The position numbers and the translations under genes were made by a program. This document shows, piece after piece, positions 57,976 through 64,000 of a stretch of DNA of 64,000 bases. How positions within the stretch are numbered: position 1 is the stretch's first letter; the number at the start of each line of letters is the position of its first letter. Under the pieces are notes generated by a model. It had not been told where the DNA came from. It did not search any database and saw nothing but the letters and a program-made list of their open reading frames with translations. The DNA is from a virus, in the IMG/VR virus record IMGVR_UViG_3300030109_001381, positions 1 through 64,000 of that record; one strand, 5' to 3'.

Positions 57976-58290
57976 TTACCAACCACCGTCAGGTTGACCA
58001 CCATTTGCTACACCAAGATTGGACTGTGCTTGTATGGCCTTCGCCTCCTTAGCCAAGTCCTTCTCATGCTGACGCATCATCATCAAGTCATTTGCTCTCA
58101 CCAGTTTCTTATGGGTGTAGTCGATTTGGTCACCATTGCCGTAGGTGCATCTATCCAAGAGCAACCTCATATGGCAAACCAAGTCTAGCAACTCCTTGCT
58201 ACTCTTCGCTTCCTGAGCAACCCACTTCGCCAATACCTTTGCCGAGTCACTTGCTTCCTTTCCATTCATTCTTCCTTCATTTTCATTCAT
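57976..58290 (-). CDS. Unknown helical protein downstream of the JAMM protease
   Basis: A 104-residue protein from ATG 58290, overlapping the JAMM stop; GGAGGA precedes it. It is helical (DSAKVLAKWVAQEAKSSKEL then LLDLVCHMRLLLDR; HKKLVRANDLMMMRQHEKDL) with a Gly/Gln/Asn-rich C-terminal tail (GVANGGQPDGGW). Its position directly after the JAMM gene makes it a candidate partner or substrate of that system. No family is recognised. Confidence 0.5.
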   Translation of the reverse strand: MNENEGRMNGKEASDSAKVLAKWVAQEAKSSKELLDLVCHMRLLLDRCTYGNGDQIDYTHKKLVRANDLMMMRQHEKDLAKEAKAIQAQSNLGVANGGQPDGGW

Positions 58291-58864
58291 CTTCATTTCC
58301 TCCATTTTGTTTGTAATACCCATAGAACACATGCTTGCAAAGTTCTGTCTTGCAGTCATATGTCAGGTATTGATTGTCTCCCAATACAATTGCCGATTCC
58401 ATAACTGGCCTCCAAGTATTGATTGTTTTCCAGTCTGTGCCGGAGAAGAATGCTTTACCCATTGGGTGTGTATGAATCCAACACCTTACAGGTAACTTCA
58501 TTCCAGTCAGTTGTCCTTCGTCATCTTGAAACGAAACAAAACTACTCGTTCCAGCACTTATGAATAACTTGTTGTTACTATCTACTACGACTTGAACTTC
58601 CCTTGGAGTTTCAAATGCCTCCATTGACATTCTCCATATCTCCGTCAAGAAATGCTCAACCGCATTATCGGGATAAAGGTAAATTAATCCCTTATCTCCT
58701 ACAACGGTATGGAATGCTTCTCTTATGTGAGCCTTCCAATCAGGTTTCTTAGCACCTTCTGTTTTCTCATAAGCCTCTTCCACACGCCATTCATCATACG
58801 CATCATCTATTCTTTTCTCATCTCTTTCTGCATCTTCAATTTGTTTGTCACTCATTTTTCCCAT
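58283..58864 (-). CDS. JAMM/MPN+ metalloprotease (deubiquitinase-type)
   Basis: A 193-residue protein. The motif H131-x-H133-x7-S141-x2-D144 (WIHTHPMGKAFFSGTDW) is an intact JAMM zinc-protease site, the family that removes ubiquitin-like modifiers or processes their precursors. The usual upstream Glu could be E82, E85 or E89 (EAFETPREV). The preceding strands QVVVDSNNKLFIS and helices fit the MPN fold. It is not the phage tail gpK form, because it has no NlpC domain and lies in the replication operon. It follows a zinc protein ending LGGQ and an E1-like enzyme gene. ATG 58864 follows AGGAGG by 8 bases. Confidence 0.85.
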   Translation of the reverse strand: MGKMSDKQIEDAERDEKRIDDAYDEWRVEEAYEKTEGAKKPDWKAHIREAFHTVVGDKGLIYLYPDNAVEHFLTEIWRMSMEAFETPREVQVVVDSNNKLFISAGTSSFVSFQDDEGQLTGMKLPVRCWIHTHPMGKAFFSGTDWKTINTWRPVMESAIVLGDNQYLTYDCKTELCKHVFYGYYKQNGGNEDE

Positions 58865-58865
58865 T

Positions 58866-59105
58866 TTATTGTCCTCCTAATTCTGCCATTATCAAATCCT
58901 GTGAATTGACGAATTTATGATATGCTTCGTGTCCCGCAATGAAACCACCTGCATGTCTTTTAGTTCCTAAGAACTCTTCACCACAAACGGGACATGTTAC
59001 TTTCACTATTTCCGCTTGCATATAATACCCATCCGTTGATATCACATTCATTACTTTCTCCAAGTCTTCCTCGGATAATCCTTCTATGTCTTCTTCTCCA
59101 CTCAT
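58866..59105 (-). CDS. Small zinc-finger protein with C-terminal LGGQ, between E1-like and JAMM genes
   Basis: A 79-residue protein: an acidic helical N-terminus (EEDIEGLSEEDLEKVMNVI), then a C2H2 zinc site (CPVC with H...GHEAYH), then a helix and the C-terminus AELGGQ. The last residues resemble an unprocessed ubiquitin-like tail (GG plus one residue), and the gene lies exactly between a conjugation-type E1 and a JAMM protease. A beta-grasp fold is not evident; the zinc finger is the clear feature. It could be a modifier, a substrate adaptor, or neither. ATG overlaps the E1-like stop (ATGA). Confidence 0.55.
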   Translation of the reverse strand: MSGEEDIEGLSEEDLEKVMNVISTDGYYMQAEIVKVTCPVCGEEFLGTKRHAGGFIAGHEAYHKFVNSQDLIMAELGGQ

Positions 59106-59692
59106 ACGTTTATCACCATCTTATCTATAACACCATCCTTGTCATTGAACCATCGCTGAATCCATTGGGCCGCGATACCTGCAATTGCCATATGCATGGT
59201 GTTAATGTCTTTTCCTGAGCCATCCCAATCTCCACCTTGACAGGAGAAAGAACCTTCCGGTCCACTCAGAAATGTGTCCATCATCATAGGGTCAACCTTG
59301 TATGAAATAAGAGCCGCGTTTCTTCCCTGCGCTCTTAGGTCTAGCCAATGCATTTCTGCATCATCTCCAAACCCCTGCCGATACAGTAGCCTTCTTACTG
59401 CTAGATTATCTGCACAACAAATCACTAGGTCATATCCCTTTAACTGATGCTTAACTAATACAGGATAAGGTTCAGCATTACAACCGAACTTGTCAAACAA
59501 GGACATTACCTTATGCTTGCCTACTTCACCTTCCTCAAAGTTCTGATAGGATAGATTCTTGTTCTCTATCTTATCATCATCGAAGACAGTCACCTGATAC
59601 AATTTACCAGTCTTAGCATGATTAATCCTAGACAGGAAATCTGCTAGGAAACTACCAATGCCTCCTGCACCGATTAACATTACCTTCCTCAT
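59102..59692 (-). CDS. E1-like (ThiF/MoeB/HesA-type) activating enzyme
   Basis: A 196-residue Rossmann-fold adenylation domain. GAGGIG (8-13) is followed by VTVFDDDKIENKNLSYQNF, where the family has D-x-D-x(3)-NL-x-RQ; Arg is replaced by Tyr. Later come VICCADNLAVRRLLY, the D-x-x-D-N-x-x-x-R pattern, and a Cys in FSCQGGDW that could be the thioester Cys. It would activate a C-terminal Gly of a ubiquitin-like or sulfur-carrier protein. No E2 or clear carrier gene is seen. ATG 59692 with GGAGGGA upstream is preferred over 59707. Confidence 0.85.
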   Translation of the reverse strand: MRKVMLIGAGGIGSFLADFLSRINHAKTGKLYQVTVFDDDKIENKNLSYQNFEEGEVGKHKVMSLFDKFGCNAEPYPVLVKHQLKGYDLVICCADNLAVRRLLYRQGFGDDAEMHWLDLRAQGRNAALISYKVDPMMMDTFLSGPEGSFSCQGGDWDGSGKDINTMHMAIAGIAAQWIQRWFNDKDGVIDKMVINV

Positions 59693-59901
59693 TCTGTTCC
59701 CTCCCATTTATTCTCAAAGATAACCTTCTCCGCTTCTGAGAAAGACGCAGTAAAGATAGTACCGTTATCCATATGGATATCTATCACAAATCCCTGATTC
59801 GTCAGAAATTGTTTATCCATCTTGTTGATGGTATAGGCACATACCTTATCCAAATCCACCATTGTCATTCCACTTGTTGTTTTCATTTTCATTCTCTTCA
59901 T
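59689..59901 (-). CDS. Small unknown protein between TFB and E1-like genes
   Basis: A 70-residue protein with a short basic N-terminus (KRMKMKTT) and a strand-rich core (DLDKVCAYTINKMDKQ; GFVIDIHMDNGTIFTASF) ending in a helix with Trp. Its layout recalls the 49629 product. It does not end in GG, so it is not an obvious ubiquitin-like modifier, but it is coupled to the E1-like gene. ATG 59901 overlaps the TFB stop, with GGAGGA 7 bases upstream. Confidence 0.5.
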   Translation of the reverse strand: MKRMKMKTTSGMTMVDLDKVCAYTINKMDKQFLTNQGFVIDIHMDNGTIFTASFSEAEKVIFENKWEGTE

Positions 59902-60818
59902 TTTATTCCTCCTAATATTTCTTTTATGTCATATGCGTGACTCGCTTGGTTCAGTTCTTTCTTATTTATTCGTAACATACCACAAATCCTTGAAGCGGCT
60001 TGCCTCAATCCATAATCGGATGCTTGTGCATGTTCTCTTATGTCGCTCTGTTTGAACCCTGAATGAGTTAATTTACTCGCTACCCAAATGGTAGCAGCAA
60101 TATCATTCTGCGACATTCTTTCATCTAAACTGTCTTTCATTACATCTACATGGTTTACTAATTGTAAAGCAGATGCTCTGAAATCAGAGTTTGTTCCTAT
60201 TGTAATCATCTTTGATACTATAGCCTCAGCATCACTTACTGATGTGGGCTGAGAGAATACAGAAGGATTGCGATAGCGAGTTGCTATCTTCTTAGCCCAT
60301 TTAGTATTGGACTTGCTATCTCCACCTGCAATCTTCTGATGAGACTTGGGCGTTAGTTTGAATCCTCTATCTTTCAAGATGTAATAGGTCAAACTAGCGG
60401 CCCTAACTTCTAGGCTTATACCAATGAAGAAATGCTCCTCTCTCAAAGTATTGTAGGTAGCAACACACTCATGAATTATGTTCTGAGCATGTTCACCTAC
60501 AACGTATCTAGAAACTATCATAGCAACATCTGCTCTGAATCTACTCTTTCTCGTTCTATCTCTGTTTGCTCTTTTCTGATGCAATCTCAACGCCATCCCT
60601 TTTGATTTCCTAGCATCTCCCAAACTAATGTAGGTTCCTAATTCCCTGTGGTTATCTGCGACCACAGAATATTTCTTACCGTCAGCCTTCTGTCTGTCGG
60701 GGTTATAGATTCTTTCATAACCATGTGAAACATGGACTGCCCCACAATCAATGCAAGTTATCTCTCCTGTCTTGTCATCTTCTGTAGTTCTTAGACAACC
60801 ACATAACTCACACTTCAT
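59898..60818 (-). CDS. tfb: Archaeal transcription initiation factor B (TFB)
   Basis: A 306-residue TFIIB-type factor: an N-terminal zinc ribbon (C3, C6, C22, C25), a B-linker region (RELGTYISLGDARKSKGMAL), and two cyclin-like repeats (about 110-200 and 205-300), with a C-terminal helix ending EILGGIK. TFB binds TBP-DNA and recruits RNA polymerase. A virus-encoded copy probably redirects host polymerase to viral promoters, and implies an archaeal host. The length is typical. ATG 60818 overlaps the upstream stop (ATGA). Confidence 0.9.
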   Translation of the reverse strand: MKCELCGCLRTTEDDKTGEITCIDCGAVHVSHGYERIYNPDRQKADGKKYSVVADNHRELGTYISLGDARKSKGMALRLHQKRANRDRTRKSRFRADVAMIVSRYVVGEHAQNIIHECVATYNTLREEHFFIGISLEVRAASLTYYILKDRGFKLTPKSHQKIAGGDSKSNTKWAKKIATRYRNPSVFSQPTSVSDAEAIVSKMITIGTNSDFRASALQLVNHVDVMKDSLDERMSQNDIAATIWVASKLTHSGFKQSDIREHAQASDYGLRQAASRICGMLRINKKELNQASHAYDIKEILGGIK

Positions 60819-62435: not shown

Positions 62436-64000
62436 TCAAAGTATCTCGCAGGTTCCACCACTACAGGCAATCTCGCCTTGTAGGTCGGTTTGGTCTGTTT
62501 CTTCCTTGACTTTGTAAAGATGAACTTTAGAGAGAACCTCTCTCATCTTCTCAAAGCGATACTTGGTTATGTCTTCAAAGACTAATTGTGGATGTGAACC
62601 ACCGAAGTAGGGAATCACAGTAATGCCATTGTAGGAATCACGATTCTTCCACATCCATTCTCCTACTTCTTTCCACTCGTCATCCTTGACGCTAACTGTA
62701 GCCGAGACATTATGCATGTTGTTACCATCAATATGTCCGGGTGCTATCCAATTCCAAAAGAAGTGTTTGATTCTCTCTAACAAGTCTAACGCAGATTCAT
62801 CCAATCTAGTTATTGCTCCCTTTGGTGCTTTCTGAGGAACGCATAGTAGAGATATGTTTGCTTCTGTTAGAGACTTCTCCATTAGAGTAGGGAACTTCTT
62901 CACTAAGTAATTGTGAATTGGTTCGTTCACTCCCACTTGAATGCGCCTGATGTAGTAGTCATTATGCCATGCGTGAATACCGGAAGATGTTCCTAGAACA
63001 CAACTAGTAGTTCCTTCGGGTTTGATACAAGTAAGCCTAGCGGCATAGTTCATCTTTCTATCGCTCTTATCATTGATAGTATCAACAGTCTCCACATTGA
63101 CATCAATGACACAGTTAGTAGCCTCTTCCAAGTCCAACTTAGCAAGAGCGTTACTACCAATGCCAGTTAGAGAAACACCGAGCAATGCATCTTTCTCACA
63201 GTTCTCTCTCCAAATCTCCCTAAGATAATGGAAGTCTGTGTATGCGGCTTGCAATGTTCCCAAGAATGAAGCGGCTGATACTCTAGCATTCAAGTCCTCT
63301 TGCGATGTAACTGTAGAAGCATTGACGGAGCAAAGATTACACATCTGAAATGGCCTAAGCGAAATTTCTGCACAAGGATTTGTTCCCCAATCTTTGTCAT
63401 TAGTTAGAAAGAATCCGGGTTCTCCGGTCTTGTTCAATTCAATCCTCTTCCATACATCCATGAAGAATTCCTTCTTGAGTTTGTGACGTAGCAATACAAC
63501 CGAGTTATTTGCTCTCCCTCGATAAGGGTGCTTCTCATACCAAAGACCACTCTTGGACATTAGCATCTCCTCGTCATCTGCACTAAACAGACTAATCATA
63601 GCCGCTCTTCTTATGCCACCTGCCAATACAGAATCAGCAATATGACAAAGCATATCGTGAACCTCGATAGGTTTCATCTGATGGCCATCCGGCATATTCT
63701 TCAGCATCTTATGAACCAAATCAAGACACTTATCCAAAGGGTCGGGACCGGGTGCAGTTCCACCTGTTGTCTTCAACGGAGAACCTAGTGGCCTTATCTC
63801 CGTGAAGTCAAACTTAGGTGTAGTAGTTCTAACACCTGTATAAGAATCGAATAGGACTCTAATTGCTTCTGCCCATCCCTTTATCGAATCCTCAATCAAA
63901 TAGCGATAAGTCCTACTCGATGGTTGCCTTATCACAGGTAGTTGATTGACATGATGATATTGGACGGAATAACCGACACCTGTTCCACCTAGCAGTAGGA
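62436..64000 (-). CDS. nrdJ: Class II (adenosylcobalamin-dependent) ribonucleotide reductase, partial
   Basis: At least 521 residues; the frame is open to the window edge, where it continues with LLGGTGVGYSVQYHH, a signature of the class II triphosphate-reductase type. Core motifs: NPCAEISLRPFQMCNLC (radical-site Cys with Glu, and the second active-site Cys), LLGVSLTGIGSNAL, and the C-terminal redox pair C-x4-C in ACSGGTCEIL. It makes dNTPs for viral replication using vitamin B12, common in marine viruses. The usual length is 700-780 residues, so roughly the N-terminal third is missing beyond 64000. No intein is visible in the part seen. Confidence 0.93.
   Translation of the reverse strand, partial: LLLGGTGVGYSVQYHHVNQLPVIRQPSSRTYRYLIEDSIKGWAEAIRVLFDSYTGVRTTTPKFDFTEIRPLGSPLKTTGGTAPGPDPLDKCLDLVHKMLKNMPDGHQMKPIEVHDMLCHIADSVLAGGIRRAAMISLFSADDEEMLMSKSGLWYEKHPYRGRANNSVVLLRHKLKKEFFMDVWKRIELNKTGEPGFFLTNDKDWGTNPCAEISLRPFQMCNLCSVNASTVTSQEDLNARVSAASFLGTLQAAYTDFHYLREIWRENCEKDALLGVSLTGIGSNALAKLDLEEATNCVIDVNVETVDTINDKSDRKMNYAARLTCIKPEGTTSCVLGTSSGIHAWHNDYYIRRIQVGVNEPIHNYLVKKFPTLMEKSLTEANISLLCVPQKAPKGAITRLDESALDLLERIKHFFWNWIAPGHIDGNNMHNVSATVSVKDDEWKEVGEWMWKNRDSYNGITVIPYFGGSHPQLVFEDITKYRFEKMREVLSKVHLYKVKEETDQTDLQGEIACSGGTCEIL

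Follow-up and report, generated by a model that had tools for sequence, protein, structure and literature searches.

Viruses and genomes of ocean archaea were found to share a set of three genes, encoding a predicted ubiquitin-like protein (Ubl), an E1-like enzyme, and a JAMM metalloprotease, and we consider it probable (about 0.72) that these form a ubiquitin-like modification system, common to the archaea of marine group II (Poseidoniales) and their viruses, with trimming, activation, and conjugation. The window, i.e., the whole 64,000-nucleotide stretch of DNA analyzed, lies in a virus record of 67842 bases that also encodes PolB, an RFC-like AAA ATPase, an ATP-dependent DNA ligase, and tail proteins, a gene set that fits a magrovirus, which we take this virus to be. 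The relevant features are as follows.

58283-58864, minus strand: JAMM metalloprotease with complete active site (open reading frame, homolog alignment)
58866-59105, minus strand: 79-amino acid C2H2-type zinc protein ending LGGQ (open reading frame, relatives)
59102-59707 or 59102-59692, minus strand: E1/ThiF-type adenylating enzyme (open reading frame, Pfam and TIGR matches)
59689-59901, minus strand: 70-amino acid protein between the TFIIB-like and E1 genes (open reading frame)
59898-60818, minus strand: TFIIB-like gene adjoining the E1 gene (profile scan)
62436-64334 in full, of which the window holds 62436-64000, minus strand: ribonucleotide reductase gene
64497-64700 in virus coordinates (L292:2498-2701:-), minus strand: 67-amino acid predicted Ubl ending IVGGC, 497 bp past the window end

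The three overlapping genes described by a first-pass annotation of the window, for an E1-like enzyme, a zinc protein, and a JAMM protease, were all recovered as open reading frames on the minus strand, and their annotated order is kept in dozens of contigs. For the E1 gene the start at 59692 is the likelier one; it agrees with the relative in L002. The E1/ThiF-type identity assigned on first reading was borne out by a match to PF00899 (Pfam ThiF; 3.4e-13, 49.7 bits against a gathering score of 28.1) and by a GxGGxGS nucleotide loop; the enzyme also matches TIGR03736 (PRTRC_ThiF; 1.1e-16), at 60.9 bits and thus under the family cut-off of 144.75. The loop is of the GAGGIGS type, with glycines and serine invariant in all 87 alignment rows that cover it, and D43, D45, N51, Q55, K66, and D100 are invariant in the viral family. 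A candidate catalytic cysteine, Cys156, follows the adenylation domain in 89/89 E1 sequences, and most host E1s contain an SCQ motif. The ATP-binding motifs are intact with one exception, the arginine of the NLxRQ motif, which is replaced by tyrosine in 85 of 89 viral E1s and by histidine in most host E1s. UbaA and ThiF retain this arginine, as do most of the PRTRC enzymes examined; from its replacement in both viral and host enzymes, catalysis may be altered. Of the signs that the first-pass annotation named as refuting, neither a loss of LGG from homologs nor a loss of the ATP-binding motifs was encountered. The same arginine is replaced in two crAss-like loci (NLSGQ/NMSGQ; L237:2557-4666 and L238:2598-4654).

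A structure model of the E1 (pLDDT 91) matches the folds of Cap2, UBA5, ThiF, and MoeB with E values of ∼1e-8 to 1e-10. The viral enzyme, at ∼200 amino acids, is without the long C-terminal part of the 360–370-amino acid host UbaA-type E1, a part that appears rhodanese-like by its sequence. An E1 tree groups the viral enzymes in a single clade (96/99) beside and apart from the cellular ones, with UbaA, PRTRC, and crAss enzymes placed outside it; this tree carries long-branch warnings, and two of its host rows are badly aligned. Recent capture of the viral E1 is not supported. The JAMM protein matches PF14464 weakly (2.5e-4, under the gathering score), and its profile matches AMSH-like deubiquitinases and, weakly, CsRpn11 (E 0.16). 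It nevertheless contains the motif HTHP-x6-S-x2-D, just as given at first reading, and across 66 homologs there is no change at E89, H131, H133, S141, or D144, the residues of a complete zinc site.

The modifier is very probably a beta-grasp protein encoded elsewhere, rather than the zinc protein between the two enzymes. Among viruses without the zinc gene, the gap between E1 and JAMM is empty or holds SANT/Myb-like or other proteins, with no conserved GG-tailed protein there. SANT/Myb-like basic proteins occupy the position of the zinc protein in a further group of related viruses (L126, L127, L130, L134, L138, and L143). Since E1-JAMM pairs often occur without the zinc gene, every open reading frame of the viral loci was examined for a conserved GG end. 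This screen gave one other large family, a 67 to 74-amino acid protein whose gene precedes that for ribonucleotide reductase; in the present virus it is the next gene upstream of the latter, just outside the window, and its product reads MKLRIMNDTGHTELVDVSATQMVEQITDHPTHWVYVDGEMVTREAIGNIAWDEVDNVNLVPAIVGGC. GG is present in each of the 62 distinct viral members; in five it is the very end, in the rest one or two variable residues usually follow, and the Gly-Gly is invariant in alignment A7. Profile similarity predicts a ThiS-like, beta-grasp Ubl: against the viral profile, Escherichia coli ThiS outscores 150 decoy proteins, and hhalign of the family with its host members against archaeal ThiS/MoaD gave E 1.3e-5, probability 81%, and a score of 32, the highest score of any non-Ubl decoy family being 17. 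Pfam ThiS matches 8 of 39 members, weakly. A sequence search of the PDB with the Ubl gave no meaningful match, and annotated phage records contained no match to the JAMM or the Ubl.

Among the 80 viral loci with a Ubl from IMG/VR, 77 also contain E1 and JAMM genes; of the three others, one has only an E1 and two have neither partner, on stretches that end ∼3.5 kb past the Ubl. The Ubl gene always lies upstream of the E1 gene on the same strand, with the E1 2.6–7.2 kb downstream. Screening of 194 genomes of the class to which G001 belongs, which we take to be marine group II, detected the Ubl in 83, this type of E1 in 80, the JAMM in 86, and the complete trio in 72 (Fisher tests of each pair, p < 1e-34, with shared ancestry ignored). 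Host E1 and JAMM genes lie no more than 500 nt apart on 76 of 77 contigs, and in G008 a two-unit Ubl, the E1, and the JAMM are all found on one 2.06-Mb contig. Host Ubl units mostly end in GG, including every unit of four polyubiquitin-like open reading frames with four (L434:6826-7680), three (L435:7533-8174 and L436:7527-8153), and two (L437:7200-7637) tandem units. Some hosts encode Ubl-Ubl-E1 fusions (L427, L428, and L430) and others E1-JAMM fusions (L431, L432, L433, L438, and L439). Taken together, the host trio, the poly-Ubl genes, and the fusions indicate that Ubl, E1, and JAMM are parts of one system. The first-pass annotation was right about the class of system, an activating enzyme, a modifier, and a protease, and very probably wrong in its tentative choice of the zinc protein as modifier, given that the Ubl accompanies E1 and JAMM in nearly all viral loci and is fused to E1 in hosts. 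A Pfam scan of viral and host neighbor genes gave no match to an E2 or E3 family; a divergent E2 might escape such a scan. A conserved 79 to 87-amino acid protein follows the JAMM in hosts (L428:8539-8784, L432:8394-8633, and L442:7973-8236), and a TFIIB-like gene lies near these same three host clusters, as one adjoins the viral E1.

What the sequences show is which genes are present and in what order, how they co-occur and fuse, the poly-Ubl genes, the conserved catalytic residues, and the profile similarity to beta-grasp proteins; from these we infer how trimming, adenylation, thioester formation, and conjugation to targets might proceed. The JAMM would trim the Ubl precursor, removing the cysteine from GG-C and exposing a Gly-Gly carboxylate, which the E1 would adenylate with ATP and then carry as a thioester on Cys156. 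From there the Ubl would pass to protein targets, either directly or via an unrecognized E2, and the JAMM could later remove it again. The zinc protein would act as an accessory, its own GG-x tail perhaps also being read by the E1 or JAMM.

A possible reading, to which we give a minority share of belief, is that the viral E1, JAMM, and Ubl mainly interfere with a host Ubl pathway, by means of a decoy Ubl and a deconjugating JAMM. This concerns the role of the genes and is compatible with the mechanism just described. It would fit the homologous set carried by host-class genomes and the single clade of viral E1s beside cellular ones; however, the virus retains all three genes, catalytic residues intact, and not just a JAMM, and there is no evidence for a defensive role of the host system. 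Rather unlikely, in our estimate, is a sulfur carrier, in which the JAMM exposes the GG and the E1 makes a Ubl thiocarboxylate that delivers sulfur to tRNA, nucleotides, or a cofactor. Precedents are ThiS, MoaD, and Urm1 and also JAMM-processed siderophore carriers. The nearest relatives of the Ubl are indeed ThiS/MoaD, no E2 was found among the neighbors scanned, and a cysteine is also present in ThiF/MoeB-type E1s. However, the short viral E1 does not have the rhodanese-like part of the host UbaA-type enzyme, no sulfurtransferase or thiolase was detected among the genes scanned, and poly-Ubl precursors resemble modifier genes rather than carrier genes, all of which argue against a sulfur carrier.

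The zinc protein, with CxxC, HxxxH, and C-terminal LGGQ motifs, ends as first annotated, and its tail is widely conserved: 55 of 58 distinct viral relatives in IMG/VR end in GG plus exactly one residue. The GG is absent from the remaining three viral proteins and from a larger-genome host group. There are two deep lineages, one of GG forms from viruses and some hosts and one of GG-less forms from other hosts and the three viral proteins. In the window, the glycine codons GGAGGA sit 8 nt 5′ of the JAMM ATG and double as its Shine-Dalgarno sequence, so that in a single genome the GG could be due to chance. The upstream TFIIB-like gene ends LGGIK owing to its own Shine-Dalgarno overlap. Many minus-strand gene ends within 38756-62417 of the window overlap the Shine-Dalgarno sequence of the next gene and yield recurrent C termini such as EEE and LGGxx, for which reason any C-terminal motif of this virus should be checked at the codon level. 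Upon such a check, 17 of 54 distinct complete GG-tailed zinc genes were without GGAGG at the glycine codons, and cellular zinc proteins with a convergent downstream gene keep the GG-x (ESMGGV and QQMGGI), which shows that overall the tail is conserved at the protein level and does not arise by chance.

Such conservation, and a gene position between E1 and JAMM, would suit a zinc protein that is itself the modifier, a non-beta-grasp tag whose GG-x is trimmed by the JAMM and activated by the E1. We nevertheless hold this to be improbable. The zinc gene is present in 36 of 80 viral Ubl loci and missing from 44, of which 41 hold E1 and JAMM; GG-less forms exist in viruses and hosts; and the seven sampled host genomes with a GG-form zinc protein contain no Ubl, E1, or JAMM of this type. 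The first-pass annotation had seen no obvious beta-grasp fold in this protein, and AlphaFold (pLDDT 86.8) likewise predicted strands followed by a long C-terminal helix and no beta-grasp; the model had no PDB fold match below E 0.5. A variant in which one E1 and one JAMM serve two Gly-Gly tags, the Ubl and the zinc finger protein as non-beta-grasp modifier, appears just as doubtful. That LGGQ results only from the Shine-Dalgarno sequence preceding JAMM, as GGAGGA before the ATG and the LGGIK end of the TFIIB gene might suggest, is scarcely credible, and as a full explanation it is refuted by the codon data and by the GG retained in host copies with a convergent neighbor. With the GG-C-ending Ubl as modifier, the probable role of the zinc protein is that of an accessory, perhaps a target or a Ubl adaptor. 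Two cellular, chromosomal copies of the GG form were found in marine group II (L239:1738-1989 and L240:2125-2367). In the tree, the UBA23 copy (L259 being the same gene) falls among viral ones, and its placement suggests host-virus exchange of the zinc protein.

From one single-cell genome of marine group II, Grau-Bove et al. described E3s and a UCH-type deubiquitinase (PMC4327156), which is another system; in a survey of magroviruses (PMC10160649), both ThiF and JAB go unmentioned. No report was found in the literature on ubiquitin-like systems in these hosts and viruses; coverage of that literature was incomplete, so that novelty is provisional. To that extent, the Ubl-E1-JAMM set in viruses of ocean archaea and in their hosts appears unreported. 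The compact set, poly-Ubl genes, and fusions would extend the ubiquitin-like systems of these archaea, which are abundant in the ocean, by a branch that seems not to have been described before, and would be the first such system described in this virus group, per the literature searched. They would allow a direct test, with three small proteins, of the minimum number of parts required for conjugation, and they bear on virus-host conflict over protein tagging.

Among known systems, the nearest annotated E1 family is that of the plasmid-borne PRTRC system (ThiF, JAB protein A, and proteins B and C), to whose Marinobacter ThiF the viral E1 is 36% identical over 60% of the query. In the PRTRC family, too, the E1 is accompanied by a JAB protein. 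In contrast to that family, the viral E1 scores under the PRTRC_ThiF cut-off and occupies a separate clade, and no PRTRC ParB, B, or C was recognized in the viral system. Protein C was considered as the closest relative of the Ubl and rejected, as it does not align with the viral Ubl. Crass-like phages (DAC15 and bajarodcaudo virus 1) encode a JAB-domain protein next to a ThiF E1, as here; the E1s, however, belong to a different clade, the proteins are longer, and no GG-ended Ubl was identified there. Operons that combine E1, E2, and JAB were described in bacteria by Iyer et al. (2006; PMC1779556), and some of these sets also include two to three tandem Ubl repeats and Zn-finger proteins. Such operons, Bil/Bub, and CBASS Cap2/Cap3 hold Ubl, E1, and JAB in one operon, as do the loci described here, whereas the present set shows no recognized E2, is found in archaea and archaeal viruses, and includes Ubl-Ubl-E1 and E1-JAMM fusions. 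The Caldiarchaeum ubiquitin operon resembles it in pairing a ubiquitin precursor with a JAMM protease, CsRpn11, which processes it (PMC6043591) and which the viral JAMM profile matches weakly, and is set apart by an E2 and a RING-type E3 (PMC5654768). The Haloferax SAMP-UbaA-HvJAMM1 system (PMC4443979 and PMC4895103) offers an archaeal precedent in its Ubl, in an E1 that has no E2 of its own, and in a JAMM able to cleave Ubl adducts. As compared to Haloferax, the present genes make up an operon of their own, whose E1 differs from UbaA; they encode a precursor with extra C-terminal residues and poly-Ubl, and occur also in viruses. We regard the trio as a variant, in archaea and their viruses, of an already known type of system.
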